A stretch of 64,000 nt of DNA from Buttiauxella agrestis (lineage in GTDB: Bacteria; Pseudomonadota; Gammaproteobacteria; Enterobacterales; Enterobacteriaceae). Position numbers and translations under genes: made by a program. The notes below the pieces were generated by a model that was given only the letters and a program-made list of their open reading frames with translations, did not search any database and was not told the origin of the DNA. The stretch spans positions 4,180,763 through 4,244,762 of the forward strand of contig NZ_UIGI01000001.1 of NCBI RefSeq assembly GCF_900446255.1, in the 5' to 3' direction. The number at the start of each line of letters is the position of its first letter. Position 1 is the first letter of the stretch. Positions 35,528-58,527 of the stretch are shown here, piece after piece.

Positions 35528-35531
35528 AATC

Positions 35532-39425: not shown

Positions 39426-39516
39426 GACAACCTCAAAATAGGTGGACGGTGGACGCGGTATCGATGAGGAATAAATCCAGTCTCAACCGACGTGCCGTCC
39501 GGCGCGGGGCGCATTC

Positions 39517-40269: not shown

Positions 40270-40272
40270 GGT

Positions 40273-41343: not shown

Positions 41344-41374
41344 TGTTTTTCCTGATTAATGAGGTTGTTCGGGG

Positions 41375-42196
41375 TTAACAGTTGGTCAACACAGAGTCGC
41401 CATTGCCGCCGCTTGCCGGTTCGCGACGACGTTGCGTAAAGCTCTCGGTGTTATCGAGTGAGGTTTCCAGCGTGGAGAGTTCGCCTTTCAGGGTGTTGAA
41501 TGACAGCTCCATCGCATTCAGGCGTTGCTCAGTGGCGTCGTGGTTGGCCTGCACCTGCTCAGTAACTACCGTCACCGCTTCGTGCACATCGTTAAAACGC
41601 GCATCGTCATCAGCCTGTTTACGGCTGAAAATGCCTTTCACGGTGTCGGTCAGTTTGGTGAACAGGGTGTCGGGCTGGTCTTCAAATTCCAGCTCGGCCA
41701 GTGTGGCAACCGAGAACAAATCCTCCGGACGTTCCTTGCGACCAGAAAGCGGATTGGTTTTGGCACGCGAGCAGAATTCCAGATATTCAGTGCCGAGGCT
41801 TGCCGGGTCGTCGGTGACAGCCAGGCCAATCAGATAGCACTTGCCGGAGTTGGAGAAATTCGGGCGGATCTCCATCGAGGTGTAAACCTTCTGGCCTTTG
41901 CCGACCATTTCCACCAGATTCGCCAGCGGGGTGATGCGGGCGAACAGCGCGAGCTTGCCGTTGAGCGCGGAATCATCGTCGATGGTCTCGGCTTTCAGCT
42001 CGGTGACATCGCCGTAACGGCAAAACGGGCTGTCAGGTAACACACTGGTGATGTGCTCGAGATTGATGCGTGCGCCGTAGACACGCGGGTCGAATGAATC
42101 GGCCATTTCCTGAATATCGGTGCCGCTGATCACGCGACCGTCGCAGGTGTCACCTTCGACGCCGATGCGGAACCATTTAGAAACTTTCTTTGCCAT
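41375..42196 (-). CDS. O: Capsid scaffolding protease gpO
   Basis: gpO is an internal scaffold that also matures the capsid by proteolysis. In this 273-residue protein the serine-protease triad positions known for P2 gpO are all kept: D19 in TCDGR, H48 in NLEHIT and S107 in VYTSMEI. The C-terminal half is helical, for scaffolding. The start at 42196 (MAKKVSKWFRIGVEG) replaces an upstream start lying over the promoter region. It is divergent from P, with an Ogr-type site between them. Confidence 0.95.
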   Translation of the reverse strand: MAKKVSKWFRIGVEGDTCDGRVISGTDIQEMADSFDPRVYGARINLEHITSVLPDSPFCRYGDVTELKAETIDDDSALNGKLALFARITPLANLVEMVGKGQKVYTSMEIRPNFSNSGKCYLIGLAVTDDPASLGTEYLEFCSRAKTNPLSGRKERPEDLFSVATLAELEFEDQPDTLFTKLTDTVKGIFSRKQADDDARFNDVHEAVTVVTEQVQANHDATEQRLNAMELSFNTLKGELSTLETSLDNTESFTQRRREPASGGNGDSVLTNC

Positions 42197-42275
42197 GTTC
42201 AGGAGTCCTGAGTGTGGGGTGATTGGGTCAGGCTTAGTTTCCTGACTCTGCACCCGGCCTGCCATTCATCCCGGA

Positions 42276-42295
42276 TGGCTTACCCCTGACACAAC
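42276..42295 (-). promoter_or_regulatory. Ogr/Delta recognition element between O and P
   Basis: On the minus strand GTTGT-N8-TAAGCCA agrees fully with the consensus GTTGT-N8-TNANCCA reported for P2 and P4 late promoters at about -55. It lies 80 bp upstream of O and 67 bp upstream of P, so one site could serve both divergent late operons. I recall the consensus from the literature on P2 late promoters. Confidence 0.7.
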
Positions 42296-42361
42296 AGCAC
42301 CTTAGCGCGCATCGCACCCCGCTTCAGTAGCCTTGCCTCTGTCGAATAACGCGAGGCAAAC

Positions 42362-44134
42362 ATGACCATCACCACCGATACCTCCATTCTTAAAGATCCA
42401 CGACGACAGGCGTCACTGCTCTACTGGCAGGGGTTTTCCGTGCCACAGATTGCCGAAATGCTCGGACAGAAACGCCCGACAGTGCAGAGCTGGAAACAGC
42501 GCGACGGCTGGGACGGCATCGCGCCGATCACCCGAGTCGAAAACAGCCTCGAAGCACGATTAATTCAGCTGATTACCAAGCCGAAAAAAGACGGCGGCGA
42601 CTTCAAAGAAATCGACCTGTTAGGCCGACAGATTGAGCGGCTGGCGCGGGTGAATCGCTATAACCAGACCGGCAGTGAGGCCGATTTAAATCCCAACGTG
42701 GCGAACCGCAATAAGGGCGAGCGTAAGAAGCCGAAAAAGAACTACTTCAGCGACGAGGCTATCGAAAAGCTTGAGGAGATTTTCTTTGCCGAATCCTTTG
42801 AATATCAGCTCGGCTGGCATCAGGCGGGGCTGCAACACCGTATCCGCAATATCCTTAAATCCCGCCAGATTGGCGCGACGTTTTATTTCTCACGTGAGTC
42901 ACTGCTGCGCGCGCTGAAAACCGGCCATAACCAGATTTTCCTCTCAGCATCCAAGACGCAGGCGTATGTGTTCCGCGAGTACATCATCCAGTTTGCGCGC
43001 CTGGTCGATGTCGACCTGACCGGTGACCCGATTGTCATTGGCAACAACGGGGCAAAACTGATTTTCCTCGGCACCAATTCCAACACCGCACAGAGCCATA
43101 ACGGTGACCTGCTGGTCGATGAGATTTTCTGGATACCCAACTTTCAGAAGCTGCGCAAAGTGGCATCGGGAATGGCATCACAACAGCACCTGCGCTCGAC
43201 CTATTTCTCGACCCCGTCGACGCTGGCGCATGGTGCGTACCCGTTCTGGTCAGGCGAGCTGTTTAACAAAGGCCGGTCGGATAAAAGCGAGTGTGTTGAC
43301 CTTGATATCAGCCACACGGCGTTAAAAAACGGCATGGCCTGCGCCGATGGTCAGTGGCGGCAGATTGTCACCATCGAGGATGCGCTCGACGGTGGCTGCG
43401 ACCTGTTTAACCTCGACACGCTGAAGCGCGAAAACAGCGCCGAGGATTTCCGCAATTTGTTCATGTGTGAATTTGTCGACGACAAAGCGTCGGTGTTTCC
43501 GTTCGAGGAGCTGCAACGCTGCATGGTCGACAGCATGGAAGCCTGGGCGGATGACTGGCAGCCGTTCGCCACGCGTCCGTTTGGTTATCGCCCGGTGTGG
43601 ATTGGTTACGATCCTTCACACACCGGCGACAGTGCCGGATGTGTGGTGCTGGCTCCGCCAGTGGTTGCCGGTGGCAAATTCAGGATTCTGGAGCGCCACC
43701 AGTGGAAGGGGATGGACTTTGCCACCCAGGCCGAATCCATCAAAAAGCTGACAGAAAAATACCACGTCGAATATATCGGCATCGATGCGACCGGCATCGG
43801 TCAGGGTGTTTACCAGCTCGTCAGAGCCTTCTACCCGGCAGCGCGTGAAATCCGCTACAGCCCCGAGGTGAAAACCGCGATGGTGCTCAAAGCCAAAGAC
43901 ACGATTGCGCGCGGATGCCTGGAGTACGACGTGAGTTACACCGATATCACCGCCTCGTTTATGGCTATCCGTAAAACCATGACCAGCAGCGGGCGCAGTG
44001 CCACCTATGACGCCAGCCGCAGTGAAGAAGCCAGCCACGCCGATGTCGCGTGGGCAACCATGCACGCGCTGTTAAATGAGCCACTCACCGCCGGTAGTGG
44101 CCACGCATCCACCTCAATTCTGGAGTTCAACTGA
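42362..44134 (+). CDS. P: Terminase large subunit gpP (ATPase)
   Basis: gpP drives DNA into the prohead. The 590-residue protein has an N-terminal helix-turn-helix (SVPQIAEMLGQKRPTVQSW, near residue 28) and then the ATPase domain, with a Walker-A-like region around LKSRQIGATFYF near residue 166 and Walker B LLVDEIFW near residue 250. A C-terminal nuclease-like region follows (GYDPSHTGDSAGCVVL, near residue 416, and IGIDATGIGQG). Its stop overlaps the Q start by one base. Confidence 0.96.
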   Translation: MTITTDTSILKDPRRQASLLYWQGFSVPQIAEMLGQKRPTVQSWKQRDGWDGIAPITRVENSLEARLIQLITKPKKDGGDFKEIDLLGRQIERLARVNRYNQTGSEADLNPNVANRNKGERKKPKKNYFSDEAIEKLEEIFFAESFEYQLGWHQAGLQHRIRNILKSRQIGATFYFSRESLLRALKTGHNQIFLSASKTQAYVFREYIIQFARLVDVDLTGDPIVIGNNGAKLIFLGTNSNTAQSHNGDLLVDEIFWIPNFQKLRKVASGMASQQHLRSTYFSTPSTLAHGAYPFWSGELFNKGRSDKSECVDLDISHTALKNGMACADGQWRQIVTIEDALDGGCDLFNLDTLKRENSAEDFRNLFMCEFVDDKASVFPFEELQRCMVDSMEAWADDWQPFATRPFGYRPVWIGYDPSHTGDSAGCVVLAPPVVAGGKFRILERHQWKGMDFATQAESIKKLTEKYHVEYIGIDATGIGQGVYQLVRAFYPAAREIRYSPEVKTAMVLKAKDTIARGCLEYDVSYTDITASFMAIRKTMTSSGRSATYDASRSEEASHADVAWATMHALLNEPLTAGSGHASTSILEFN

Positions 44135-45168
44135 TGGCGAAGAAACGCAAACATCACGCAGCAAAAAATACCATCACACCACCGGCTGCTGCACCGAAAA
44201 AAATGGAAGCCTTTACCTTTGGTGAGCCGTCGCCGGTGCTCGATCGCCGTGACATTCTGGATTACACCGAGTGCGTCGGTAACGGGAAATGGTTTGAGCC
44301 ACCGGTGAGTTTTACCGGTCTTGCCAAAACGCTGCGCGCTGCCGTTCACCACAGCTCGCCGATTTACGTAAAGCGCAATATTCTGGCCTCAACCTTTATC
44401 CCGCACCCGCTGTTATCACAGCAGGATTTCAGCCGCTTTGCGCTGGATTTTCTGGTGTTCGGCAATGCGTTTCTGGAAAAGCGCATGAGTGTTACCGGCA
44501 AGCTGTTACGGCTGGAAACCTCACCGGCCAAATATACCCGCAAGGGTACCGGCGAGGATGCGTACTGGTTTGTGCAGTCGTTTGTCACCCCGCATGAGTT
44601 CGCGCCTAGCTCCGTGTTCCACCTGCTGGAGCCGGATATCAACCAGGAGCTTTACGGCCTGCCGGAATACCTCAGCGCACTTAACTCGGCCTGGCTGAAT
44701 GAATCGGCAACGCTTTTCCGTCGCAAGTATTACCAGAACGGCGCGCACGCCGGTTACATCATGTATGTGACGGACGCCGCGCAGAGCAGCACGGATGTGG
44801 AATCCCTGCGCGAAGCGATGCGCAGCTCAAAAGGATTAGGCAATTTTAAAAACCTGTTTTTCTACGCACCCAACGGCAAACCGGACGGGATTAAAATCGT
44901 GCCGCTCAGTGAAGTGGCGACCAAAGACGATTTCTTTAACATCAAGAAAGCCAGTGCCGAGGACTTAATGAGCGCACACCGCGTACCGCCACAGATGATG
45001 GGTGTCATCCCCAACAATACCGGTGGTTTCGGTGACGTAGTGAAGGCCGCACAGGTGTTTGTGCGTAACGAGCTGACGCCGCTGCAGGAGAGAATTAAAG
45101 AGGTAAACGAATGGATTGGTGCCGAGGTGATCCGCTTTAAACCTTACGAGCTGACACCCGCCGAATAA
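44134..45168 (+). CDS. Q: Portal protein gpQ
   Basis: gpQ is the dodecameric portal through which DNA enters the head. The 344-residue protein has a basic N-terminus, the family block SFTGLAKTLRAAVHHSSPIYVKRNIL near residue 56, and SAHRVPPQMMGVIPNNTGGFG near residue 280. It is the last gene before cos, as in P2, and a terminator follows it by 12 bp. Confidence 0.96.
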   Translation: MAKKRKHHAAKNTITPPAAAPKKMEAFTFGEPSPVLDRRDILDYTECVGNGKWFEPPVSFTGLAKTLRAAVHHSSPIYVKRNILASTFIPHPLLSQQDFSRFALDFLVFGNAFLEKRMSVTGKLLRLETSPAKYTRKGTGEDAYWFVQSFVTPHEFAPSSVFHLLEPDINQELYGLPEYLSALNSAWLNESATLFRRKYYQNGAHAGYIMYVTDAAQSSTDVESLREAMRSSKGLGNFKNLFFYAPNGKPDGIKIVPLSEVATKDDFFNIKKASAEDLMSAHRVPPQMMGVIPNNTGGFGDVVKAAQVFVRNELTPLQERIKEVNEWIGAEVIRFKPYELTPAE

Positions 45169-45179
45169 CTTCCGATTGC

Positions 45180-45204
45180 AGCCGCTGATATAGCGGCTCT
45201 TTTG
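45180..45204 (+). terminator. Terminator after gene Q
   Basis: Stem AGCCGCT / AGCGGCT with a GATAT loop is followed by CTTTT, 12 bp after the Q stop. Confidence 0.8.
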
Positions 45205-45343
45205 CACCCTCGCCTCACGCCCTCAGACGCGCTACACGGTGCGTACACCGCCAACCACACCCAAGCGAAACGGCACACCCAAAAACGCCATCACGATGTG
45301 CTCAGGCGCAAATTAAATAAAATAAATACCACGCCAGCGCGCA

Positions 45344-45362
45344 ATGCTATCCCCGCCACGCC
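45344..45362. other. Putative cos site (phage DNA end)
   Basis: ATGCTATCCCCGCCACGCC differs at one base from the reverse complement of the 19-base cohesive end of phage 186 as I remember it (GGCGTGGCGGGGAAAGCAT), and at three from that of P2. Its place, just beyond Q, is where P2-type genomes have cos. It splits the prophage into its late side (left) and early side (right). Confidence 0.75.
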
Positions 45363-45713
45363 TGCCCGCTTAATGTGTCGATTTTAATGCAGGTGCATGA
45401 CCACTCGACATCCACGCCAGCTCTGGCGGCGCGCGGCCAGAACAGGCAAACATGACGCATGCAAAACCATGCATCTGATGCATGCACAGCTAAAAAACGG
45501 GGAAATCGAAGAAAGTTGGTATAAAAAACGGGGTCTATTCGCAAACAAATTTAAAAGTCAGCTCTGAGCGAACAACGGACGTTAGGCTCACACGGACATA
45601 ATCAGTTTGTCGGAAGAACTCTAAATGTGAATAGTTCAGTTTGGCAGAATGCTTACTGTTTCACTTGAGGTCTGCTATTTTTAATTCCTTTAAACAACAG
45701 TCAGGTATGAGAA

Positions 45714-46025
45714 ATGATCGTCAGAACATGGCATGGTTGTGTTCCGCTAAAACACGCAGAGGGTTTTGCTAAGCATCTTGAGAACACAGGTGTGGAGCAT
45801 TCAAGAAGTGTAGAGGGAAACAAAGGCGCATTCGTGAGAAGGGAAACACAGGGCGGTTGGGAGCATTTTTTCCTTGCCACCTACTGGCAGGATCTGGGGG
45901 CGGTAAAGGCCTTCGCGGGTGAAAATTATCATGTGGCAGTGACATACCATGATGACGAGGAGTTTGAATTGCTTTCCGATCCCTACGTTTTCCAACATGA
46001 GGTAGAAACTACTTCACCGCTCTAG
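45714..46025 (+). CDS. Small ABM-like (antibiotic biosynthesis monooxygenase superfamily) protein
   Basis: This 103-residue protein resembles stand-alone ABM/dimeric alpha-beta barrel proteins: MIVRTWHGCVP start, a Gly-Asn turn (EGNKGAFVRRE), a HFFLATYWQD strand and a KAFAGENYHVAVTYHDDEEF helix-strand. Such proteins bind small aromatic or oxidised molecules or act as simple oxygenases; no substrate can be named. No signal peptide, so cytoplasmic. The ribosome site is weak. It is the first gene right of cos and part of the prophage cargo. Confidence 0.65.
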   Translation: MIVRTWHGCVPLKHAEGFAKHLENTGVEHSRSVEGNKGAFVRRETQGGWEHFFLATYWQDLGAVKAFAGENYHVAVTYHDDEEFELLSDPYVFQHEVETTSPL

Positions 46026-46098
46026 CTGTTTCTTCGGGTGACGCTGCCTGTCACCGGATTGCACATCACATTCCTTCTGCTCACCTTCGGATAAACTA

Positions 46099-46136
46099 CT
46101 GGATGTCATGTCCGCCTCACGTCCTGAGACATCCAG
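46099..46136. repeat. Inverted repeat after the ABM-like gene
   Basis: Perfect 9-bp arms CTGGATGTC (46099-46107) and GACATCCAG (46128-46136) with a 20-base spacer. It lies between the ABM-like gene and the convergent outer-membrane remnant. It could be a weak bidirectional terminator or a mark of rearrangement; there is no U-run. Confidence 0.4.
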
Positions 46137-46184
46137 CAACCGCGCCTTCGGACTGCATAGAGCGAGAAGCGGACTTAGCCGCTA

Positions 46185-46373
46185 TCAAGAAGCCCATAGC
46201 CGTGTCATCCCTGCCGGGTTGGTCACTATTGTGGAAGCGTCCTGAGCACGCGCGGCCTGCCCCGCTCCCGCCAGAGCCGTATCTTCGGTACCTATCTCGT
46301 AAAAATAGAGCGCGCTCGCATGAGTTGTCTGCGAGAAAAACAGACCGAGACACATCAGCATCGGTTTTTTCAT
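46185..46373 (-). pseudogene. N-terminal remnant of a FadL/OMPP1-type outer-membrane transporter
   Basis: A 62-residue frame starts at the ATG at 46373 behind an AGGTGG ribosome site. It has a signal peptide (MKKPMLMCLGLFFSQTTHA) followed by SALYFYEIGTEDTALAGAGQ and DASTIVTNPAGMTRL. That is the start of the FadL family of hydrophobic-compound channels (around 400 residues). After MTRL the similarity ends and a stop follows, so about 85% of the gene is missing. It is a broken relic, on the opposite strand to the cassette beside it. Confidence 0.7.
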
Positions 46374-46678
46374 TTGCCACCTGATTATTATTGTCATTAT
46401 TGAAATAGTTAATGCTAATAACAGCGTAGATTACGCCATTCAAATATCCACAGTTACGATGTTCAGCCCTGCAATATCGATTACATAGCTGAAGCGATCA
46501 AATAACCACTAGCCCTGTTTCCCGCTCGTTAGCGAAGAGGCATTCATCGCCAGGCAAACCGCATATTTACATCCAGCTTTAACGTGTTATTTCACTCTTT
46601 GCGGAAATATCAAATGTAAAATCTCAAATCTAAACTACTATTTTCAATAACATTCCCAGCCCCGGAGGTTGCAATTTT
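46374..46678. promoter_or_regulatory. Upstream region of the DUF1254 cassette
   Basis: About 300 bp with no gene, AT-rich toward its right end. It must hold the promoters of the FadL remnant (minus) and of the cassette (plus). I see no operator or strong -35/-10 pair that I would defend. A GGAGGT ribosome site sits 9 bp before the first cassette gene. Confidence 0.5.
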
Positions 46679-47761
46679 ATGAAAAAGGTACTTTGCCTGA
46701 GTATGCTGGCTTTGTGTGTCAGTAATGCATGGGCTGCGGACGCTATCAGTCTTGATAAGGTCCGCGAACTCGAAACGACGCTTGTCGGGAAAAAGGATGT
46801 CAGTGTCACCCCTGAAAACTATGCTTTTGCCGAACTCGACGTGGCGATGAACGAAGAAGTGAAACATGGTGCAACGAATAAGTTTTATCACCACCGTATG
46901 CCAATGGAGATAGATAAGCAGCCTGCGGTATTAATGAACCGCGATACTCTCTATTCTTTTGCCATTATTGATGCTTCTCATGGTGCGACAGTTCACGTTC
47001 CCGAAGGGGATGGTCGTTATATTTCTCTGCACGTGATGGATCATGATCACACCACTGAACATGTGTATTACGGCGCAGGTGATTACAAAATTGACCCTGA
47101 CAAAGCGACTCATTTCCTGGTTCTGAATATTCGCACTCAGGTGAATCCAAACGATCCGGCTGACATCCAGAAAGCACATGTCATTCAGGATGAATATAAG
47201 GTCACCTTCCCGGACGGCTACACGCCAAAAGCGTTCAAGATGATTGACTGGAACACAGATGAGCTGAAAAAACTTCAGGCCCATTATCGCCAGCTCGCAG
47301 ATAAACGTGGCGTCAGTAAAACGTCCGGCCCACGTGGTGATTATCCGCAAGAGGATGTGAATATCGGTGCGGCAGTGGCCACGGGATTACTGCCTGACAA
47401 AGATGCCTGGTACTCATTTAATACCTATAAGGTGGATAAAAATACCTGCTATACCGCGACCTATCAGGTTCCGGGAATGGCAAAACCCGATCTCGGTTTT
47501 TATTCCCTGACGATTTACGGTGATGACCTGTACCTGCATAACGAAAAAGGGTCCAGTCTTTCTAACAAAGAACTGAAACTCGACTCGGGCGGAAAAACGT
47601 TCACCATGCATTATGGTACTGAGCAAACCTGCGGAAAAGACGCGCAAAATTTGCTTATTGCGCCAACGGATAACTGGACACTGGCTTTACGTGTTTATTT
47701 CCCAACCCAGGATATTCAGGACAATAAATATAAACTTCCTGAACCAAAGCCGGTGAAGTAA
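46679..47761 (+). CDS. Exported DUF1254/DUF1214 protein, cassette gene 1
   Basis: This 360-residue protein has a signal peptide (residues 1-19, AWA) and then a DUF1254 domain with NRDTLYSF at residues 87-94 and RTQVNPNDPADIQ near 150. A DUF1214 domain follows, with YSLTIYGDDLYLHNE near residue 274 and the terminal NWTLALRVYFP. The function of these paired domains is unknown; they occur in many bacteria and in some giant viruses. Two cysteines in the C-terminal half could form a disulfide. It is nearest to cassette gene 4. A strong GGAGGT site suggests good expression. Product: periplasmic or secreted. Confidence 0.85.
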   Translation: MKKVLCLSMLALCVSNAWAADAISLDKVRELETTLVGKKDVSVTPENYAFAELDVAMNEEVKHGATNKFYHHRMPMEIDKQPAVLMNRDTLYSFAIIDASHGATVHVPEGDGRYISLHVMDHDHTTEHVYYGAGDYKIDPDKATHFLVLNIRTQVNPNDPADIQKAHVIQDEYKVTFPDGYTPKAFKMIDWNTDELKKLQAHYRQLADKRGVSKTSGPRGDYPQEDVNIGAAVATGLLPDKDAWYSFNTYKVDKNTCYTATYQVPGMAKPDLGFYSLTIYGDDLYLHNEKGSSLSNKELKLDSGGKTFTMHYGTEQTCGKDAQNLLIAPTDNWTLALRVYFPTQDIQDNKYKLPEPKPVK

Positions 47762-47820
47762 TTCATTCCCAGGAGGAAGGCTGAGCATTCAGTCTTCCCC
47801 GTACCCTGAAGAAGATATCT

Positions 47821-48927
47821 ATGAAAACAACATTACGCGCTTTAGCAATCGCTGTCGCCATGCTAACCAGTTCTGCAGTACTTGCCGTCGATACTGGTGT
47901 ACAGGCTGACGGACAAGTCACGGCCCAGAACCCTTCGTTCGCCGCGACCAACGGTGTCAAGGTCACTATGGATAATCTTATCCGAGCCGAAACAGCCAAA
48001 TATTTCGCCGCAGAGACATTAACGTCAGGGGGAAATAAATTCCGCCATGAACGTAAGGGTATTGATCTAAAAAATCAGACGGTTATCCGCTCAAATTTCG
48101 ATTTGATTTATTCGTACGGTGTTTTCGATACCAAAGATGGATTAACAGTTTCAGTTCCTGCTTACGATCTTTATCAGAGTGTACATATTTTCGATGAGGA
48201 TCATTTCACTATCGCCGTGGTTTATCCGGGGCAAACCGTCACCGTTAAACAGTCGGACTTAACACACGGTCGTTTTGTTTATCTCTTCATGCGCACTCAG
48301 CCCAGGAGTCTGGACGAAAAAGGAATAGCAGAACTGAATAACCGACAGGATATGGTGAAAGTAAGTTTTGGGGGCACGCCTGAACCCTATAAAAGTGACG
48401 TGAAATACGATGTTGATTCCTTCAACAAACTGCGTGCTGAAATTGTTCGCCGTGGTCCGAAAGAAGCGGTGATTTATAAAGGTTTTGTCTCTAAAGGGGA
48501 TAAAATTATCACTCCACAATACCAGTTAGTGAATATTGGCGGTTGGGGTGGGCTACCGGCAAAACACGCTTTTTACTGGGTAGTGGCTCCGGCTGATGAA
48601 GACGCGAAGAATGCACAATGTAGCTCGACCACCATACGTCCTCTTCCCGTTCAGTATGACAAAAATGGTTACTGGTCCTTGACGGTTTACAATGCTGAAG
48701 GCTGGGTTAAATCTGACCCATTTGTGATTAATTCACATCATGCCAAAGCGAATAAAGATGGCAGCTACACGCTTCATTTCAACTGTGGCGACAAGGCGAT
48801 TAACAATTTCCAGACTACGAAGAACTGGAACGCATTAATGCGTGCCTACTTGCCAAATTCTGTTGACGATATTCTTAAATTCTCCAAAGACATGCAGGAG
48901 AATCATCCTGTCATTAGTCAGAAATAA
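47821..48927 (+). CDS. Exported DUF1254/DUF1214-type protein, cassette gene 2 (divergent)
   Basis: This 368-residue protein has a signal peptide (residues 1-22, VLA). It keeps the overall plan of the neighbouring paralogues: NKFRHERKGIDLKNQ, MRTQPRS, and a C-terminal GYWSLTVYNAEGW plus NWNALMRAYLP. The NRDTLYS motif has become SNFDLIYS, and the DUF1214 part has extra text. If the motif is catalytic or ligand-binding, this copy may have another substrate or only a structural role. It lies 59 bp after gene 1 on the same strand, with no terminator seen between. Confidence 0.8.
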   Translation: MKTTLRALAIAVAMLTSSAVLAVDTGVQADGQVTAQNPSFAATNGVKVTMDNLIRAETAKYFAAETLTSGGNKFRHERKGIDLKNQTVIRSNFDLIYSYGVFDTKDGLTVSVPAYDLYQSVHIFDEDHFTIAVVYPGQTVTVKQSDLTHGRFVYLFMRTQPRSLDEKGIAELNNRQDMVKVSFGGTPEPYKSDVKYDVDSFNKLRAEIVRRGPKEAVIYKGFVSKGDKIITPQYQLVNIGGWGGLPAKHAFYWVVAPADEDAKNAQCSSTTIRPLPVQYDKNGYWSLTVYNAEGWVKSDPFVINSHHAKANKDGSYTLHFNCGDKAINNFQTTKNWNALMRAYLPNSVDDILKFSKDMQENHPVISQK

Positions 48928-49022
48928 CCTGCTATTAAGAGAAGTATCGTCAGGTCGACGGTATTTCTCTCCCTCAGGTTAGACCGCCGATAATTATTTA
49001 TTACCGTGGTGAGGCATAGTCC

Positions 49023-49802
49023 GTGAATCTAACAAAACTACTTTTTGCACTTTCTCTGCCATTGGTCGCACATGCTGCTGAAGAACACGCACCGGATGCC
49101 GCACAGGCAAATAACCCTCTGGCAAATATGACTGCATTCAATATGCAGAACTACTATATCGGCGATATCAGCGGGACGGACAAAGATGCCAACCAGTTCT
49201 GGTTTCGTTACGCACAGCCTTTTTCTCTGGGAGAAAGCAACTGGTTGTTACGTGCTTCTCTTCCCGTTAACACCTATCCTTCTCCGCCTGACGGAGGGCA
49301 TCAGACCGGGCTGGGTGATCTGAACCTTTTCACGGCGTATCTGATTGATACAGGCAATCCGGCCATCAGTTTTGGCTTCGGGCCTCAGCTTACTGCACCA
49401 ACCGCGACGGAAAATTCTCTCGGCAGCGAAAAATGGTCAGCTGGGCTGGTTAACGTACTCTTCGATGCCAGTTCACCCAAAATTCAGTACGGTTATCTGG
49501 CGTCATGGCAGCACAGCTTTGCCGGGGAAGGGGATCGCAGTGACGTAAACCTGGGCGCATTCCAGCCCTTTGTCTTCTATCAACTGGGCGGCGGTACCTA
49601 TCTGAGATCTGCACCTATCTGGAACTATAACTTCCAGAATGACAGTTACGGCATCCCTCTGGGGCTGGGCGTGGGGCAGGTCATAAAACAGGGCAAGACG
49701 GTTTATAACTTCTTCATTGAGCCACAAGGCTCCGTTGCCGATCGCGGACCCGGGCAACCACGCTGGCAAGTTTTTGCCGGTCTGAACCTTCAGTTCAATT
49801 GA
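49023..49802 (+). CDS. Small outer-membrane beta-barrel protein, cassette gene 3
   Basis: This 259-residue protein has a signal peptide (about residues 1-18, AHA). Alternating hydrophobic/polar strands follow ([31 protein letters not shown]), with [12 protein letters not shown], and it ends in an aromatic-capped strand [10 protein letters not shown] with a terminal-region Phe, typical of outer-membrane barrels. It resembles putative transporter barrels of the phenol-degradation/MetA type, but I cannot name a substrate. GTG start. Placed between DUF1254 genes 2 and 4, it could be the outlet or entry route for whatever those proteins handle. Confidence 0.75.
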
Positions 49803-49839
49803 CACGAAAGCGTATTACTCACTTATACCAGAGGTCATA

Positions 49840-50850
49840 ATGATAAAAGTAAATGCCATACTGATGACGACATTGATAATGGGCTCTTCAGCATACGCTG
49901 CTCAAACAGTTACCCCAGAAAACTATGCCCGTGCCGAAGTTGACCTTTCTTATCAAAACGTGGTTAACGACGTTGGCAGCAATAAATTCCGTCATGATCG
50001 CACACTGATGCCGCTGGATAAGCAACCTGCAGTGACCATGAACCGCGACACAATTTACTCCTTTGGCGTCTACTATGTTCCGAATGGCACGACGGTAACG
50101 TTGCCAAAATCAAAAGATGGCCGCTACCAGTCGGCAATGATCATGCAGAATGATGACTTCACCGATCAGGTCTTTTATGGCCCGGGTACTTTTGAGATAA
50201 AATCAAAAACCGAGTTTGCGGCAATCGTGGTGCGCACTCAGGTGAATCCAGGCGATCCGCAGGATATTGACTATGTCCATAAGTTACAGGATGAAATAAC
50301 CGTTAAATGGCCTGCAGGTACCAAAGTTAAGTCTTATACGCCTGTAGACTGGGATAAAGACAGCCTGATGACGTTGCGTAAACAGTACCAGGCTGAGGCT
50401 GCGAAATTACCTAACTTCAATGACACCGCAGGTGCACGGGGTAAAATTGACCCGAAAATGCTGCGTCTTAGCGCCTCTGTCGCGCTCGGTTTGCTTCCCG
50501 CAGAAGACGCAGTTTACCTCTATCGTGATTTTGGTCTGAGCGGGGATAAATGCTACAAAGCTACCTACAGCAAACCAGATTTCAATGAAGGTGGTTTCTT
50601 CTCCTTCACGATGTATGGTGCGGATAAATACCTGCACGATGAGAATTCTATTCTGAATAACCGCACCATTAAATTCGATCCGGATGGCAAATTCACTATT
50701 TACTATGGTCCTAAAAAGGTCTGCGGTACGCAGAAAAACTGGCTACCCACTCCTGGAGATAACTGGTATCTGGGAATGCGTATTTATCGCCCTGGGGAGT
50801 CTGTCATTAATGGTTCTTATACCGTACCGACACCTGTCGAAGTGAAATAA
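49840..50850 (+). CDS. Exported DUF1254/DUF1214 protein, cassette gene 4
   Basis: This 336-residue protein has a signal peptide (residues 1-20, AYA) followed at once by VTPENYARAEVDLS, the same opening as gene 1. DKQPAVTMNRDTIYSFGV, RTQVNPGDPQDI and HKLQDEITVKWPAG are all shared with gene 1, as are FFSFTMYGADKYLHDEN and NWYLGMRIYRPG at the C-terminus. Gene 1 and gene 4 are thus a duplicated pair flanking a divergent copy and a barrel. It lies 37 bp after gene 3 and ends at a hairpin. Confidence 0.85.
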   Translation: MIKVNAILMTTLIMGSSAYAAQTVTPENYARAEVDLSYQNVVNDVGSNKFRHDRTLMPLDKQPAVTMNRDTIYSFGVYYVPNGTTVTLPKSKDGRYQSAMIMQNDDFTDQVFYGPGTFEIKSKTEFAAIVVRTQVNPGDPQDIDYVHKLQDEITVKWPAGTKVKSYTPVDWDKDSLMTLRKQYQAEAAKLPNFNDTAGARGKIDPKMLRLSASVALGLLPAEDAVYLYRDFGLSGDKCYKATYSKPDFNEGGFFSFTMYGADKYLHDENSILNNRTIKFDPDGKFTIYYGPKKVCGTQKNWLPTPGDNWYLGMRIYRPGESVINGSYTVPTPVEVK

Positions 50851-50863
50851 GATTGTGAACGCG

Positions 50864-50885
50864 GGCCAGGTAAAACTGGCCTTTG
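50864..50885 (+). terminator. Hairpin at the end of the DUF1254 cassette
   Basis: Stem GGCCAG / CTGGCC with a GTAAAA loop followed by TTTG, 13 bp after the last cassette gene. The U-run is short, so termination may be partial. Confidence 0.6.
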
Positions 50886-51097
50886 TGTATTCCCGATGTC
50901 TTTGCATCAGGTGTTTCTGTCGGAGTGACTCTTAACACTAAGCGCTCTTTCGGCGGCTGTGAGCGAAAAGCGGACACGCCAAGTATTAACACGAGCAGTA
51001 ATACTCTTCAGTTGTCATATCGCTACGGCATGAAATCCCACAATTCATGGCCCAGTGTGTTTTAATACTGTTGGATTTCATCGTTCTAGGACAAGTT

Positions 51098-51598
51098 ATG
51101 CTAATCATCTTCAGTGGTTTGCCTGGAAGCGGGAAAAGCACTATCGCTCAGGCTTTGACAAAGCAGTTAAATGCTCTTTACTTGCGAATCGACACGATTG
51201 AGCAGGCCATACTTAAAGCCGAAGAAGATGGCCGTGAAATGGGGCCTACTGGTTATTTTGTCGCTTACTCACTCGCCAGAGAAAACCTGCTATTAGGAGC
51301 AACAGTAATCACTGACTCAGTTAACCCACTGGCGTTAACCCGTGATGCCTATCGAGAAATAGCTTTATCGGCAAGAACCGATTTTTTAGAAATTGAGATC
51401 GTATGTTCCGATATGATTGAGCATCGTAAACGAGTGGAAACAAGGGTGTCACAAGTCGAGGGGTTAACCCTGCCAGATTGGAAATATGTTACCGATTTGA
51501 CTTATGAACCATGGAACAGAGAACACCTCATTTTAGACTCGTACAGTTTATCCAGCGATGAATGTGTATCAAGGATCATCAAACTTCTTTCGCGATGA
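51098..51598 (+). CDS. Small P-loop kinase-like protein
   Basis: This 166-residue protein has the Walker A motif GLPGSGKST at residues 7-15, directly after MLIIFS. DTIEQAIL and VITDSVNPL follow as likely substrate and Walker-B-like parts, and an RVETRVSQVEG lid region with arginines near residue 115. The pattern is that of small nucleotide or antibiotic kinases of the AAA_33/zeta-like group. No antitoxin-like partner is adjacent. The ATG at 51098 is preceded by AGGA and is used rather than a start 17 codons upstream. It lies between the DUF1254 cassette and tum. The substrate is unknown. Confidence 0.7.
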   Translation: MLIIFSGLPGSGKSTIAQALTKQLNALYLRIDTIEQAILKAEEDGREMGPTGYFVAYSLARENLLLGATVITDSVNPLALTRDAYREIALSARTDFLEIEIVCSDMIEHRKRVETRVSQVEGLTLPDWKYVTDLTYEPWNREHLILDSYSLSSDECVSRIIKLLSR

Positions 51599-51780
51599 CT
51601 TGGTCTTGAGAGGCTCCCCAACAATTATTATGGTGGGTAGTTAGCAATGTCCGCTCCTGGCACAAAGCTGCCTGTCAGATTAGGTTAAGCTCGTAGGCCG
51701 TAACAGAGTCAGACAAAATCTGAGCTAATACATATTACGGTACCCATGATTTTCCTATGTATGTAATCCCCATACAAACA

Positions 51781-51804
51781 ATCCCATGCTATCAAACATG
51801 GGAT
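51781..51804 (-). terminator. Terminator after tum
   Basis: Perfect 8-bp stem ATCCCATG / CATGGGAT with an 8-base loop, followed on the minus strand by TGTTTGT. It lies 25 bp after the tum stop. The 180 bp to its left (from 51599) hold no gene. Confidence 0.65.
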
Positions 51805-51828
51805 CAAGGTTTGTACCATTTTCAGTAA

Positions 51829-52269
51829 CTAACGCCAGCTCTCATCTTCCCAAACTTCCTGAAGTATATTATCCAGCGCTTCACGGTCAGAATCCTTATC
51901 AAACCCCACCAACTCTACGCCTGTCGTCGAACCTTTTTTGACTACGACATGCGTTGATGGGAAAACAGACTGTATTCGCCTGGTCAACTCGCCTTGGAAA
52001 GCATCTACAATCTGCTGGCCAATTTGTTGGTCTTTATCCAACGTGATGTTTACTCTTACCTCCCCCACTCGTTTTAATCTTTCTTCAAAGGGCGTAGGAG
52101 CAAAAACCACTGAAAAAGAGTCACTTTTTAATAAGTTCCCCCTCGCAATTTCAGCAATTAAATTCAAGGCAATTTCACGGTCTCTTTCCTGACAAGCGCC
52201 TTCAGCCGTTAAACGCGCAATCATTTCGACCCGCTCAATCATAACGTGCTCATTCAACTCTCTATCCAC
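51829..52269 (-). CDS. tum: Tum-like antirepressor with DinI-type C-terminal domain
   Basis: In phage 186, Tum is made only when LexA is removed, and it frees the prophage by blocking CI. This 146-residue protein has the same context and a C-terminal DinI-like domain (VRVNITLDKDQQIGQQIVDAF, VVVKKGSTTGVELVG, WEDESWR end). The longer ATG frame would start at 52311, upstream of the LexA site, and cannot be right. A GTG at 52269 has a GGAGG site four to five bases ahead and is chosen; the ATG at 52242 is an alternative. A LexA box lies 21 bp upstream, so SOS induction is expected. Confidence 0.85.
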   Translation of the reverse strand: MDRELNEHVMIERVEMIARLTAEGACQERDREIALNLIAEIARGNLLKSDSFSVVFAPTPFEERLKRVGEVRVNITLDKDQQIGQQIVDAFQGELTRRIQSVFPSTHVVVKKGSTTGVELVGFDKDSDREALDNILQEVWEDESWR

Positions 52270-52289
52270 ACATCCTCCATCGCGAGATA

Positions 52290-52305
52290 CTGTATATAAA
52301 CACAG
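52290..52305 (-). promoter_or_regulatory. LexA box upstream of tum
   Basis: CTGTATATAAACACAG has perfect CTGT and ACAG ends with eight AT-rich bases between, flanked by TA on both sides. It is very close to the strong LexA consensus TACTGTATATAAAAACAGTA. It lies just upstream of the tum ribosome site. Confidence 0.92.
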
Positions 52306-52378
52306 TAACATAAATTAACTGAATGTGCGAAATGAAATCATCAAGAAATACATTGTATGTGCATGATAAAGATGAATA

Positions 52379-54637
52379 TTAATGGCACTTTTTCATGGCT
52401 GACTCTGCTAAATACGTTACACGGCTTACGATTTCCTGAGCTTTAGCATGATATTTCCTGGCCTTTGCATGTTGGGATGGAGCAGCGGAAAAGATTTCTC
52501 CAGCGGCCGAACCTTTCAGCCATTTACCATCAAAGCTACTGCGACCACCGGCAATCAGGTGCAACGCTTCGCCCCGGCTAATGGTAACGCCAGTGGTCAA
52601 ATGTATCTCGCTGACCGTTTTTTCTATCACACCGTTCTGCTCATCCAGTCCGTGAATAAATTTTCTTCCGGTAGGCGATTTGGGCTTCCTTATTCGGTTC
52701 GTCAACTCTCGTTTTTCACGCCGACTAAGTGGATTTAATAAATCCAACTCCGGTAGGTCGCTTTCGCTTCCCGTACAGTTATTGACAGAACTCCGAGAGG
52801 GCGAAGGTTCGCCCTTAACGTCAACGGCCAAATCAACAGCACGTTTCGGGACAATCTTCCACTGCGTGAGTCGGGTTAAAATCGGAGCATCAGAACCTAT
52901 GGCGGCATCATAGACACCACGAATCAAGACGGTTTCCTCTCCGTACTGGTTCAGGTCGTCGCGTGCCTCATAAAGTGTACGCACCTGTAAATCGTCGCGG
53001 CGCACAAACGGGCCGCCCTGCGCATTAACATAGCCAGCCCAATCACCGGCGTCAGCTGCATCATGCACGGCAGCAAATTCAACGCTCAAGCCATGAGCCG
53101 CATTGGTATCAGCCATGCGGCGTAATTCACGATAAACCGTAACCGGCGCACCGCCGAGAAATTGAAATTGACGGATATGCCAGCGCGCCGCCCAGGCCGA
53201 AACGGCGGGAGCTGTTTCTTTCAGCAACTCGCCGCTTTCGTCATCTTTTTCATTGTCGAGTGCATAGCCATCAATGTTTTTAGAAATGTATTTAGCGATA
53301 TAGCCTGTAGCGCTACCTTTCTCCGGATCTATTGCCTCGGCATGGAAACGCGCCTTTCTGGCCTTTTCACTTTTCAGCTCGGTAAAGTCTTCTTTCCAGG
53401 CATAATCACGAATAATACAGCGAACGCGCTCCACATCTTCCGGCAGCATGAACATGAGCATATGCCAGTGCGGTGTCGCATCGTGGTGAGGTTCGGCGAC
53501 ACGTATCCCGAAGATACGAATTTCTTCGCGGTGTAGTTTGGCGCGGATACGCGCCCACAAATCGGTTAAATAACACTGAGTGTCAGCAGGGCTGGCACCC
53601 CTCCATTTAGCGTTACGGTAGCCAGCTTTTGTTGTGGCGTGATATTTTGATGGTGCTGTGATTGTGTAGAACTCGCCGACGTAGCCAAGCTCATTGCAGA
53701 TATTTTCAAACCCTCGGATGCGGGTCATCAGTTCACAACGACGGATGGCGGGGTTAGCAACAGAACCATCATATTTTTCAATCAGGCTGATGCGATTGCC
53801 GTCCTCGTCCTCAAGCTCTAGCCCTTTAAGAAACTCGCGCGTGCGACGCTTTTGCTCTCGCCAGTCTGTGACACAGTTTTTACTTGCGTAAACCTGCTTA
53901 ATCTTGCTCACAGTCCCAACCGCAATTTGCAGGTGCTCACGCCATGATGAAGCGACACGACGAAGGCGGCTACGCCACCACGTCTCTGTAAACATGCGGA
54001 TAACCGCCGGGGCAATATCATCCTGATCCACATACTTCTTTGCTACTCGCTCCCAATGCGGAGGGGTGACATTGAACTGCAATGCAATTAAGCCTGCCTG
54101 GTTATACCAGGTATAAAGAGTTTTTAGCTCACCAAAACCCGAGTCATTAATATTTGCCAGCTCAGAGCGGGTAAAGTTCGCGATATCAGCGGCCAATAAA
54201 TCAATGTCAGCTCGGGACATGTCCGGCAGGCAATTATATCGGCCAATCATATTGATTAGCCGTAAATCCATATATTCATGTATTTCGGTATCAATGCGGC
54301 AGCCAGCAATCCCGGTGTTAACACCAGCACTAACACCAGCAACATGATATTTGCTTGTAACAAGCTCAATGCGCGACAATACCTTTTTGCAAAAGCTAAT
54401 TAAAAAAGCATTGGCTCGCCGATTCCCCTGCTCCCGCTCAATCATTTCCACAGTGCGATAAACATCGAAACGAATACTTTTAGGAAGACGAGAAATAGCT
54501 TTTCTTGCATGCAGCAAAGCTGCGAACATACGGTCGCGGCGGTGTTGTTGCTCATATGTTAGGTATGGGCTGGCTATTGCTGACCGTGGAGCATTCCAAG
54601 GATAAGCATAATTTACCGTGGTGCTAGGCGTCAGCAT
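52379..54637 (-). CDS. A: Replication initiation protein gpA (HUH endonuclease)
   Basis: gpA nicks the phage origin and starts rolling-circle replication. The 752-residue protein has the metal-binding HUH motif in ATPHWHML (H390, H392) and the two catalytic tyrosines Y446 and Y450 in GYIAKYISKN, matching the paired tyrosines of P2 gpA. In P2 the origin lies inside this gene, so it likely does here too. It overlaps the upstream small gene by 14 bp. No break is seen. Confidence 0.95.
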   Translation of the reverse strand: MLTPSTTVNYAYPWNAPRSAIASPYLTYEQQHRRDRMFAALLHARKAISRLPKSIRFDVYRTVEMIEREQGNRRANAFLISFCKKVLSRIELVTSKYHVAGVSAGVNTGIAGCRIDTEIHEYMDLRLINMIGRYNCLPDMSRADIDLLAADIANFTRSELANINDSGFGELKTLYTWYNQAGLIALQFNVTPPHWERVAKKYVDQDDIAPAVIRMFTETWWRSRLRRVASSWREHLQIAVGTVSKIKQVYASKNCVTDWREQKRRTREFLKGLELEDEDGNRISLIEKYDGSVANPAIRRCELMTRIRGFENICNELGYVGEFYTITAPSKYHATTKAGYRNAKWRGASPADTQCYLTDLWARIRAKLHREEIRIFGIRVAEPHHDATPHWHMLMFMLPEDVERVRCIIRDYAWKEDFTELKSEKARKARFHAEAIDPEKGSATGYIAKYISKNIDGYALDNEKDDESGELLKETAPAVSAWAARWHIRQFQFLGGAPVTVYRELRRMADTNAAHGLSVEFAAVHDAADAGDWAGYVNAQGGPFVRRDDLQVRTLYEARDDLNQYGEETVLIRGVYDAAIGSDAPILTRLTQWKIVPKRAVDLAVDVKGEPSPSRSSVNNCTGSESDLPELDLLNPLSRREKRELTNRIRKPKSPTGRKFIHGLDEQNGVIEKTVSEIHLTTGVTISRGEALHLIAGGRSSFDGKWLKGSAAGEIFSAAPSQHAKARKYHAKAQEIVSRVTYLAESAMKKCH

Positions 54638-54905
54638 AATTGCCTTTTATGGCCTCGCTACATAAGCGCCCTACACGCTCAATCTCTGCCGCCATAACAT
54701 GAAGAGAAGAGATATCAGAACCTTGAATATGATGATGAACCAGACCAGAAATGAGCTGGTTCAGCTTCGGGTAATAACCGATAGTATCGAGCCATTCCTC
54801 ACCGGCTTTTTTTCCTGACTTTACGACCTTCTTCTCATTCAGAATGAATTGATATTGGTCGCTGGTAATCACCCATTTGTCGCCAATTTCGATACGAATG
54901 CTCAT
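54624..54905 (-). CDS. Small early protein of P2/186 phages (DUF5405-like)
   Basis: This 93-residue protein begins MSIRIEIGDKWVITSDQYQFILNEKK and has a His-rich centre (GLVHHHIQGSD). From memory it fits the DUF5405 family that sits directly before gene A in P2-type prophages. Its function is unknown. It ends inside the start of A, so the two are co-translated. Confidence 0.75.
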   Translation of the reverse strand: MSIRIEIGDKWVITSDQYQFILNEKKVVKSGKKAGEEWLDTIGYYPKLNQLISGLVHHHIQGSDISSLHVMAAEIERVGRLCSEAIKGNYADA

Positions 54906-55127
54906 TTAAACACCTCTGTAATGCTTTGATTTGAGTTCTACAATTTGTTGGCATGTCACGCATAAGCCCACGCCCGGAATTGCAATGCGGCGAGCTTCTG
55001 GGATTGGTGCGTCACATTCTTCGCAGAGGAAACGAGAAGGCAAAGCGATACGGCTACATGCATTTTTGATATGTCGATCGCGGTCTTCTTGCTCACGTTG
55101 TTGCGCTAAATCCATTGAGTCGGCCAT
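54906..55127 (-). CDS. TraR/DksA-type zinc finger protein
   Basis: This 73-residue protein has a C4 zinc site: C35 and C38 in FLCEECDAPIPEARR, and C56 and C59 in GLCVTCQQIVE. This is the DksA/TraR finger, usually with an N-terminal helical hairpin that enters the RNA polymerase secondary channel. P2 has such a gene (orf82) in the same place. It may bias transcription to phage early genes; this is inference from TraR. It touches the next gene at a one-base overlap. Confidence 0.88.
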   Translation of the reverse strand: MADSMDLAQQREQEDRDRHIKNACSRIALPSRFLCEECDAPIPEARRIAIPGVGLCVTCQQIVELKSKHYRGV

Positions 55128-55357
55128 TAGTACAGCTCCATTGCTTGATGGCGATATGTCTCGCTTTCCTGAAAAAGCAAATCCAGCACTTCATTTATCT
55201 CAAGCTTATTGGCTCTAATGTGGTTCGCTAAATTCAGAATTCGAGAGGCCATTACCTCAGCTCTGGCGCGTCGCTCCTCACTTTTTGCGTCTGCGAGTAG
55301 CTGCTTAAGCTTGGATACTTCATTTTTTCTTGCGTTACTGCTTTCGGTATTACGCAT
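55127..55357 (-). CDS. Small early protein (DUF2732-like)
   Basis: This 76-residue helical protein (KLKQLLADAKSEERRARAEVMASRILNLANHIRANKLE) matches the DUF2732 type seen in P2/186 early operons. No function is known. It precedes the zinc finger gene with a one-base overlap and follows the next gene by about 70 bp without another reading frame. Confidence 0.75.
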   Translation of the reverse strand: MRNTESSNARKNEVSKLKQLLADAKSEERRARAEVMASRILNLANHIRANKLEINEVLDLLFQESETYRHQAMELY

Positions 55358-55427
55358 ATCTCTTTCTCCTAAATTGGGGCATAAGAATGCCCGGCGGGTT
55401 TACGCCTAATGTTCTGGAATGGATTAA

Positions 55428-55811
55428 TTACTCAGCTAAATAGCAGTCGTGTTTTGAAAATCTTGCCGGGAGTAAACTTCCCCAGCGGGTAATTTCATTC
55501 ATTGAACGGATAATCAACAAACGTCGCGCTTGGTCGAAAAACTCAAACGGCTTGCCGATTTCATCAGGTTTGAATGAGGACGGCTCCAGGCGGTTAGCCA
55601 GGGTCAGAACAACAAATTTAAAGTTGTTATCGAGCTTATTAAAATTGCGCAGCGCCGTGTTGTTGGTCGCTTTTAATTGCAGACGAAAACGCGCGAGACA
55701 TTCATCACCGCTCATTTTTAACGGAGCATCAATCCGCGCATGTATCAGATACACATTGTTAAACGCCGTTTGCGGTGCCTTTACGGATTCAGCCAGAGCA
55801 GCACTTTTCAT
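55428..55811 (-). CDS. Early phage protein of unknown function (DUF5347-like)
   Basis: The 127-residue protein starts MKSAALAESVKAPQTAFNNVYLIHARIDAP and has FKFVVLTLANRLEPSSF in the middle. It fits, from memory, the DUF5347 group of P2-type prophages. It overlaps the fil-like gene by 4 bp, so the two are coupled. No motif or membrane segment is visible. Confidence 0.6.
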   Translation of the reverse strand: MKSAALAESVKAPQTAFNNVYLIHARIDAPLKMSGDECLARFRLQLKATNNTALRNFNKLDNNFKFVVLTLANRLEPSSFKPDEIGKPFEFFDQARRLLIIRSMNEITRWGSLLPARFSKHDCYLAE

Positions 55812-55996
55812 TGAGTCCTCCAGCGCTTAATTAGTCTGGTAACGAGTGATGGCTTGCGAGTACGCAGCCCATTTAACAATGCAGACTGGTCGCGGCTCGG
55901 GTGCCAGCGGTGGTTGTTCTCACCCATAATCCAGCCGTGGCCATAACTCATGGACGGGCTTTGGCGTTTCAGTAATGAAGCGAATGACGGTTCCAT
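55808..55996 (-). CDS. Fil-family protein (186 filamentation protein-like)
   Basis: This 62-residue protein, MEPSFASLLKRQSPSMSYGH, continues with GENNHRWHPSRDQSALL. It resembles phage 186 Fil, which delays host cell division when made during early lytic growth. The ATG at 55996 lies nine bases after a GAGG site; two starts just upstream (56002 and a GTG at 56005) are too close to it. Confidence 0.78.
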   Translation of the reverse strand: MEPSFASLLKRQSPSMSYGHGWIMGENNHRWHPSRDQSALLNGLRTRKPSLVTRLIKRWRTQ

Positions 55997-56006
55997 ATGC
56001 ATCACC

Positions 56007-56516
56007 TCAAATCAGGCCAAACGATGCGCCGATACCGCTCATGGTATCGACCACGCTCGACATTGCGGGGTTGGCCTGGAGTCGTGCCTGTAATGCCAAC
56101 GCAGAGAGTGACAACATCCGAATACCAGCGTTAACACTCTCAATCATGTTGTACTTATGCTCGGGAGTAAGGCGTTCAGTGGATGCTGCACCATTCGCCA
56201 GTTCCCCTAATTCACTCATGGCTCGCATGACATAGTGCTGTAATTTATCTTTCGCTAACTCGTTAACTGGCACACATGGCAGGCAGTGAATTTGAGCCAG
56301 GAACCCATCAACAAGAATTGAGTCTTCCGTCAGGTCGGTAAGCAGCCATAACTCAGGCGGGGTAAATTGGTGAGGTTGATCCGGGTTTAGCTTGTTGCGT
56401 AACGTCTGCACATTCATGCCAGCTCGCTCTGCCAGTTTCGCCATATTGTGACGCAGAGCGAAAGCCCGGCACGCTTCGTCATAATGTGGATGTTTGGAAA
56501 CCTGAAAATCAAACAT
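56007..56516 (-). CDS. CII-family establishment regulator
   Basis: This 169-residue protein has a helix-turn-helix-like N-terminal part (HNMAKLAERAGMNVQTLRNKLNPDQPHQF, residues 24-52) and a helical C-terminal half. It matches the phage 186 CII family, which activates cI transcription when lysogeny is established. It is in the early operon right after the Apl/Cox gene, as in 186. Confidence 0.88.
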   Translation of the reverse strand: MFDFQVSKHPHYDEACRAFALRHNMAKLAERAGMNVQTLRNKLNPDQPHQFTPPELWLLTDLTEDSILVDGFLAQIHCLPCVPVNELAKDKLQHYVMRAMSELGELANGAASTERLTPEHKYNMIESVNAGIRMLSLSALALQARLQANPAMSSVVDTMSGIGASFGLI

Positions 56517-56546
56517 GTCTCATCCTTATAATTCACATAAAGTGAA

Positions 56547-56810
56547 TTAAGCGCCTATGACGAGTTGAAAACGAGAATGACCTAACGCTTTACGCAACTG
56601 ATCTTCTTTCCAGCGAGCGTAATAGATGCGAATTGGGCCACCAGCTTTCTTGCAGCCCTTGCGGATTGTGCGTGGTTCGATTGGTACTTGTGGGTTATCG
56701 CCGGTAGTCCAACGATAAGCAGTACGTTCAGAAACACCTTCCAACTCTGCAAACTGTTGCAGGCTGACGATAGGTGCAGGCACTTTGATGATTGCGATTT
56801 CAGAAGCCAT
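56547..56810 (-). CDS. Apl/Cox-type excisionase and early repressor
   Basis: This 87-residue DNA-binding protein has a helix-turn-helix (LQQFAELEGVSERTAYRW) and a basic C-terminal half (RTIRKGCKKAGGPIRIYYARWKEDQL). The type corresponds to 186 Apl and P2 Cox, which direct Int to excision and damp early promoters. The start at 56810 (MASEIAIIKV) is used rather than one 11 codons upstream in the operator region. It is the first gene leftward from the genetic switch, divergent from cI. Confidence 0.87.
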   Translation of the reverse strand: MASEIAIIKVPAPIVSLQQFAELEGVSERTAYRWTTGDNPQVPIEPRTIRKGCKKAGGPIRIYYARWKEDQLRKALGHSRFQLVIGA

Positions 56811-56839
56811 GTTGCATGATTCCCTATTTGCCAAAGATT

Positions 56840-56920
56840 GCAATTGATACGCCTGTTTTTGCCAACGTTCGCCATCAATTGCGTGGGTTTAGCCAAAATA
56901 TATCTCCCAATTGAGAGATA
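56840..56920. promoter_or_regulatory. Genetic switch region with two inverted repeats
   Basis: Between apl and cI, GCAATTGAT (56840-56848) and ATCAATTGC (56874-56882) form a perfect 9-bp inverted repeat, and TATCTCCCAATTGAGAGATA (56901-56920) is a near-perfect 20-bp palindrome. These are candidate sites for CI or Apl at the face-to-face or divergent promoters. The second ends 20 bp before the cI start. Which protein binds which site cannot be told from the sequence. Confidence 0.6.
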
Positions 56921-56939
56921 GTAAATAGGTTTTATCGAA

Positions 56940-58516: not shown

Positions 58517-58527
58517 AGGAGATTCCC

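Follow-up and report, generated by a model that had tools for sequence, protein, structure and literature searches.

Outer-membrane channels of the COG4313 family include SphA and TcpY (PMC4493636). These channels take up hydrophobic molecules; they have a 12-stranded barrel fold with a segment preceding strand 1, an N-terminal segment that blocks the lumen and enzymes as genetic company, the hydrophobe channel Pput2725 (4rl8) being a structurally resolved example. DUF1254/DUF1214 proteins are represented by VPA0106 and VPA0735 of Vibrio parahaemolyticus, whose structures (3u07, 3vb9 and 2p3y) are titled uncharacterised. In the parts of PMC9122126 consulted, the interval between genes Q and A of Escherichia coli P2-like phages is described as a cargo hotspot that houses old, tin and many anti-phage systems. 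Here, we analyse a four-gene unit, made of three exported DUF1254/DUF1214 proteins and one outer-membrane barrel, which sits between Q and A of a P2-type prophage in a 64,000-nucleotide stretch of the Buttiauxella agrestis genome (contig NZ_UIGI01000001.1, positions 4,180,763 to 4,244,762; hereafter the window). With moderate confidence, we read this unit as a captured bacterial cassette that combines an outer-membrane channel for amphiphiles with periplasmic proteins binding or converting amphiphiles. Its new element is the partner-swapping association of the barrel with DUF1254/DUF1214 proteins and sulfatases.

The portions of the literature on DUF1254, DUF1214 and VPA0735 that were consulted contained no tested activity for the family and no mention of prophages. 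Two partial sources attach other labels to DUF1254, which we could not reconcile with the present reading: an iron-response table from Caulobacter lists a "phosphatidylserine decarboxylase (DUF1254)" (PMC3751524), and Argonaute operons are described with putative nucleases bearing DUF252 and DUF1254 domains (PMC6299218). For sulfatases, the part consulted of a report on a Psychrobacter plasmid describes an organic-sulfate operon with an alkyl sulfatase and names no outer-membrane gene (PMC3346939). Searches for alkyl sulfatases in prophages, and for sulfatases as prophage cargo or in Gifsy, found nothing relevant in what was mostly non-subscription literature.

The four genes and the predicted barrel

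The unit and the hairpin that follows it are as follows (ORF, open reading frame; aa, amino acids).

46679..47761, plus strand: gene 1, exported DUF1254/DUF1214 protein, 360 aa (ORF and Pfam)
47821..48927, plus strand: gene 2, exported DUF1254/DUF1214 protein, own subfamily, 368 aa (ORF and Pfam)
49023..49802, plus strand: gene 3, outer-membrane barrel, 259 aa, GTG start, COG4313/FapF-like fold (ORF and model)
49840..50850, plus strand: gene 4, exported DUF1254/DUF1214 protein, 336 aa (ORF and Pfam)
50863..50882, plus strand: terminator-like hairpin 3' of gene 4 (hairpin scan)

The coordinates of the four ORFs, with gaps of 59, 95 and 37 bp, agree with a preliminary description of the locus made from the sequence alone, and the predicted signal peptides that it placed at the start of all four proteins look typical by eye. 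Terminator-like hairpins occur at 8 sites in the region, against 5.0 +/- 2.3 in shuffled sequences.

Scored as whole proteins, genes 1, 2 and 4 are above the Pfam thresholds of DUF1254 and of DUF1214 (22.2 and 25 bits); the margin is small for gene 2. The predicted structure of gene 4 has the fold of VPA0106 and VPA0735, which are longer proteins. Genes 1 and 4 are paralogues with 44% identity and gene 2, at 31% identity to gene 1, is a diverged copy, both as first proposed. Gene 2 also forms its own subfamily, whose relatives lie next to barrels of gene 3's family in two genomes of Alcanivorax and one gammaproteobacterial metagenome-assembled genome (L050, L068 and L086). The sequence motif first reported for genes 1 and 4 is present in both but is not peculiar to them: N-x-D-x-x-Y is a broader signature, shared by every one of the 12 short proteins, by each of the 6 that are gene 2-like and by 19 of the 34 long DUF1254 proteins (loci up to L094, minus one duplicate locus).

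The predicted structure of gene 3 is a beta-barrel, in line with the early assignment. The model contains 15 strand stretches, read as 12 strands of which three are interrupted, and a helix at residues 23-29 ahead of strand 1. It superposes on FapF and, over 226 residues, on the similar-sized barrel of 4rl8, and it resembles COG4313 channels in its 12-stranded fold, in the segment preceding strand 1 and in having enzymes as genetic company. It differs from them in its own conserved N-terminal stretch and its own partner genes, and the structural alignment with 4rl8 gives an identity of just 16%. Gene 3 was not assigned to the COG4313 channels because its sequence matches no described channel family (no Pfam family at E 0.001 and no NCBIfam family).

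Partners of the barrel family in genomes, plasmids and phages

An alignment search of genome_contigs with the barrel retrieved 173 relatives, of which the best 80 were kept. Seven of these loci gave no neighbour, the barrel having been lost in the ORF filter, and 50 opposite-strand neighbours fell outside the scan; the remainder yielded 85 same-strand adjacent genes, of which all but one, a gene of 2331 aa, were submitted to Pfam. Among the 84 neighbours were DUF1254 (19), DUF1214 (18), alkyl sulfatase (12), Sulfatase (8), HAD (5) and FadL family (2) matches. As a control, 84 genes were taken from a random 100 of the 233 genes lying four or five places from a barrel; here Sulfatase appeared twice, and the remaining neighbour families were not among the 25 families listed of 129.

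Profile hidden Markov models (HMMs) of the neighbours, for which the window and some plasmid and viral loci supplied the sequences, placed 36 DUF1254-type genes within 3.5 kb of a barrel and 1 farther away (520 versus 577 kb of sequence). The corresponding counts were 19 and 1 for alkyl sulfatases, 17 and 4 for aryl sulfatases and 6 and 1 for FadL. At least one enzyme lies near the barrel in 50 of 80 loci and 35 of 58 groups; it is absent from the vicinity in the other 30 loci, and therefore either other partners exist or contigs end too early. The barrel hence belongs with its neighbours and is not the chance insertion that the preliminary description had considered. A tree of 94 barrels, one record of which is duplicated, implies no fewer than 13 changes of partner among the 60 rows that have a single partner kind, a count that has no shuffled baseline and comes from a quick method leaving 38 of 90 forks weak. 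The window's barrel, with its DUF1254 partners, falls in a starred clade of 25 whose members stand beside an alkyl sulfatase (12), DUF1254 (6, two being the same record), both (1) or neither (6).

The association is looser when viewed from the opposite side: across 147 genomes of host relatives, gene 2 occurs in 8 and the barrel in 14, both occur in 3, and they are side by side in 2. Two further loci are recorded here as observations. A contig labelled Chryseobacterium (L025) carries an enterobacterial-type barrel with 86% identity, perhaps from a mixed or mislabelled assembly. On a Pseudomonas putida plasmid (L126), DUF1254 is again paired with an outer-membrane gene: behind a small DUF1254 gene come an outer-membrane gene of the MipA/OmpV family and a PAP2 phosphatase gene.

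Among the known systems closest to the unit are cassettes of an SdsA/YjcS-type alkyl sulfatase and a barrel like gene 3, found in Pantoea, Citrobacter, Buttiauxella and viral contigs. Their barrel is about 76-95% identical to gene 3 in the enterobacterial examples, FadL is sometimes adjacent, and plasmids and viral contigs serve as carriers. The window differs in having three DUF1254/DUF1214 proteins and no sulfatase, the HMM detecting no alkyl sulfatase anywhere in it. One P2-like viral contig (L001) carries an alkyl sulfatase and an 84% identical barrel adjoining Q; a second contig, with tail-fibre-like genes (L002), has the end of an alkyl sulfatase immediately ahead of the barrel; and the Salmonella phage OK490361 carries a gene annotated alkyl/aryl-sulfatase together with a broken barrel. 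A viral contig 94% identical to the window over 40666-45213 (L163) holds the first 386 residues of a sulfatase 0.3 kb past Q, where the contig ends. After Q, closely related phages thus carry one of two things, a sulfatase or the three DUF1254 genes.

A scan with the L001 sulfatase showed this enzyme type to be common viral cargo, present on 37 contigs (L130-L166) in 14 clusters. Twenty-one of them, all from one cluster, share a broken barrel of the OK490361 type downstream; an intact barrel accompanies the sulfatase in 2 (L001 and L002) and FadL in 5, the rest having neither. On three P2-like contigs (L131, L132 and L136), the alkyl sulfatase lies elsewhere, next to a gene that by eye resembles the baseplate gene of gpV type. 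No DUF1254 relatives were found in the viral contigs or phage records searched.

Origin of the module and competing explanations

Comparison with other genomes delimits a module larger than the four genes.

46153..50975, no strand: module common to the window and Buttiauxella izardii (sequence alignment)
46160..46174, plus strand: 15-bp repeat at the left module edge, exact match to GAGCGARAAGCGGAC (repeat search)
46185..46397, minus strand: remnant of a FadL-family outer-membrane transporter, 70 aa (comparison with B. izardii, Pfam)
50961..50975, plus strand: 15-bp repeat at the right module edge (repeat search)

The module is 98.5% identical between the window and B. izardii (L015) over 46197-50975, with a further 46 bp matching at 46153-46198. 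In B. izardii, the order is FadL (395 aa, minus strand) and then genes 1-4; in the window, an internal deletion has fused these 46 bp, from past the end of the FadL gene, to its start. The remnant, which the preliminary description did not contain, scores 28.6 bits against Pfam Toluene_X, just below the 29.7 cut-off, as compared with 200 bits for the intact B. izardii protein. The module brought with it the divergent region that precedes gene 1. Rahnella woolbedingensis (L016) has a 92% identical module in which two transposase-like ORFs separate FadL from gene 1, and the copy in a third Buttiauxella genome (G022) has lost internal segments. Outside the window, the sequences searched hence contain the exact four-gene set three times, twice intact and once decayed. 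The set is rare, and the fixed unit first envisaged largely fails the co-occurrence check proposed along with it; the association of the barrel with DUF1254/DUF1214 proteins and sulfatases holds.

Nothing in the B. izardii genome matches Q-P of this phage, and the Q-P matches in R. woolbedingensis (74-78%) are all on contigs other than that of the cassette; phages of other types may surround these copies. A system born in the phage is thus not supported; what stands of the system first suggested is a recurring, partner-swapping cassette. The inferred direction is from host to phage, with the prophage acquiring a host-type module; transfer from phage to host is less likely, because the other copies keep FadL whole or nearly whole. 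Recombination between the 15-bp repeats is only a guess as to how the module was acquired, since similar sequences are present in other intergenic DNA. All four ORFs are intact and differ from B. izardii by 37 synonymous and 8 non-synonymous changes, with non-synonymous to synonymous rate ratios (dN/dS) of 0.043-0.095 (few changes); against Rahnella these are 0.035-0.082. Purifying selection acts on all four genes.

Handling of a small molecule, one of the functions first suggested, is the best reading of the barrel superposition, the sulfatase and DUF1254 neighbours and the viral sulfatase cassettes. The chemistry, substrate and benefit that we propose are as follows. A P2-type prophage of Buttiauxella would have acquired the bacterial cassette in its cargo slot. 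Gene 3 would pass a hydrophobic or amphiphilic molecule, of the surfactant, sulfated lipid or fatty acid type, across the outer membrane, and genes 1, 2 and 4, which appear to occupy the place held by the alkyl sulfatase in sister cassettes, would bind or convert it in the periplasm. As a second channel for such molecules, FadL once belonged to the module and is broken in the prophage copy. The lysogen may thereby gain a nutrient or tolerance to a harmful amphiphile.

The module might instead be a passenger, swept in via dispersed intergenic repeats with no particular gain to phage or lysogen. Its repeat-bearing edges, the FadL gene already deleted in the prophage copy, the decay of the module in another Buttiauxella genome and a prophage that itself seems to be without most tail genes all fit this explanation, which we nevertheless hold to be unlikely, given four intact ORFs with predominantly synonymous changes and the acquisition of related cassettes by unlike phages. 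An anti-phage or superinfection exclusion function, in which the exported proteins and the barrel change adsorption or DNA entry of competing phages, is quite improbable. It would suit the gpA-gpQ hotspot (PMC9122126, consulted in part) and the sibling prophages whose slots hold Septu in one case and a PADLOC candidate in another. Yet genes 1-4 have no PADLOC match, a result that leaves room for systems outside its listing, the module also occurs without this phage's Q-P alongside, the neighbours of the barrel family are sulfatases and DUF1254 proteins, and a sister phage carries an alkyl sulfatase in the same slot. As for export, with the barrel secreting or displaying the DUF1254/DUF1214 proteins or a polypeptide, like the amyloid exporter FapF, we regard it as very improbable: the COG4313 superposition (Z 20.3) is within 1 of that on FapF, a tie, and the 25 neighbour families listed of 64 include no amyloid family.

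Beyond the proposed amphiphile cassette itself, a wider proposal is put forward tentatively and is open to considerable doubt: DUF1254/DUF1214 proteins might form an unrecognised class of periplasmic amphiphile-processing proteins, set in a modular channel cassette with exchangeable alkyl sulfatase, aryl sulfatase and FadL, which several kinds of temperate phage have repeatedly picked up, equipping lysogens against surfactant-like molecules or feeding them on these. For the widespread DUF1254/DUF1214 family, its link to sulfatases and to a channel of the hydrophobe type offers a first testable substrate class. If the proposal is right, the P2 cargo slot, known for anti-phage systems, also takes envelope and catabolic cargo, and phages shuttle surfactant-type functions among enterobacteria.

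The prophage and its cargo slot

The elements that frame the unit are listed below.

32809..60374, no strand: P2-type prophage, flanked by copies of an 18-bp core (phage-family matches and repeat)
44134..45168, plus strand: portal gene, P2 Q type, bounding the cargo slot on the left (PHROG 68, E 7e-170)
45345..45362, minus strand: cos-like site (P2 pattern)
51047..51598, plus strand: small AAA_33-type kinase/ATPase, separate cargo (Pfam, on 51095-51595)
52379..54637, minus strand: replication gene, P2 A type, bounding the cargo slot on the right (PHROG 91, E 2e-271)

The host is a Buttiauxella, its rpoD being 99% identical to that of B. agrestis ATCC 33320 and 95% to those of four other Buttiauxella genomes. 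The P2-type setting first described is borne out by portal, terminase, scaffold, capsid, baseplate/tail, replication, CII-like, integrase and Ogr genes. One copy of the 18-bp core lies inside a tRNA gene (anticodon cat) at 32809, adjoined by the Ogr gene, and the second at 60357; the two copies probably delimit the prophage. The cos-like site rests on the P2 pattern as fitted to the window and is hence not independent, and the gene initially termed tum (51829-52311) matches a DinI-like family. Judged against the P2 tail gene list, the prophage seems to lack the majority of tail genes past gpI. It is probably tail-defective, because just two ORFs of at least 100 aa, Ogr and a small exported-looking one with no Pfam match (33298-33711), lie between gpI (34015) and the tRNA, in the gap 32854-34015.

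The unit shares position and phage type with the usual gpA-gpQ cargo (old, tin and the Septu system of L104), from which it differs in that it encodes an outer-membrane channel together with exported proteins. Other contents fill the slots of four P2-like prophages from three further Buttiauxella genomes. The slot of L101 spans about 680 bp with no ORF over 80 aa, that of L103 has three ORFs, two of which were checked against PADLOC with no match, and that of L104 (7971-9921) holds Septu (PtuA/PtuB). In L102, the slot (9017-11233) contains the candidate defence gene PDC-S06 of PADLOC and several other genes, among which isochorismatase-like, MBL-fold-like and transporter-like genes were named by eye. 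In the window, the product of 51047-51598, further cargo of the slot, is AAA_33/APS-kinase-like and has a weak match to VakA, and an OLD-like ATPase gene (58528-60282; PADLOC Old, E 2e-21) lies between the integrase and the right tRNA core.

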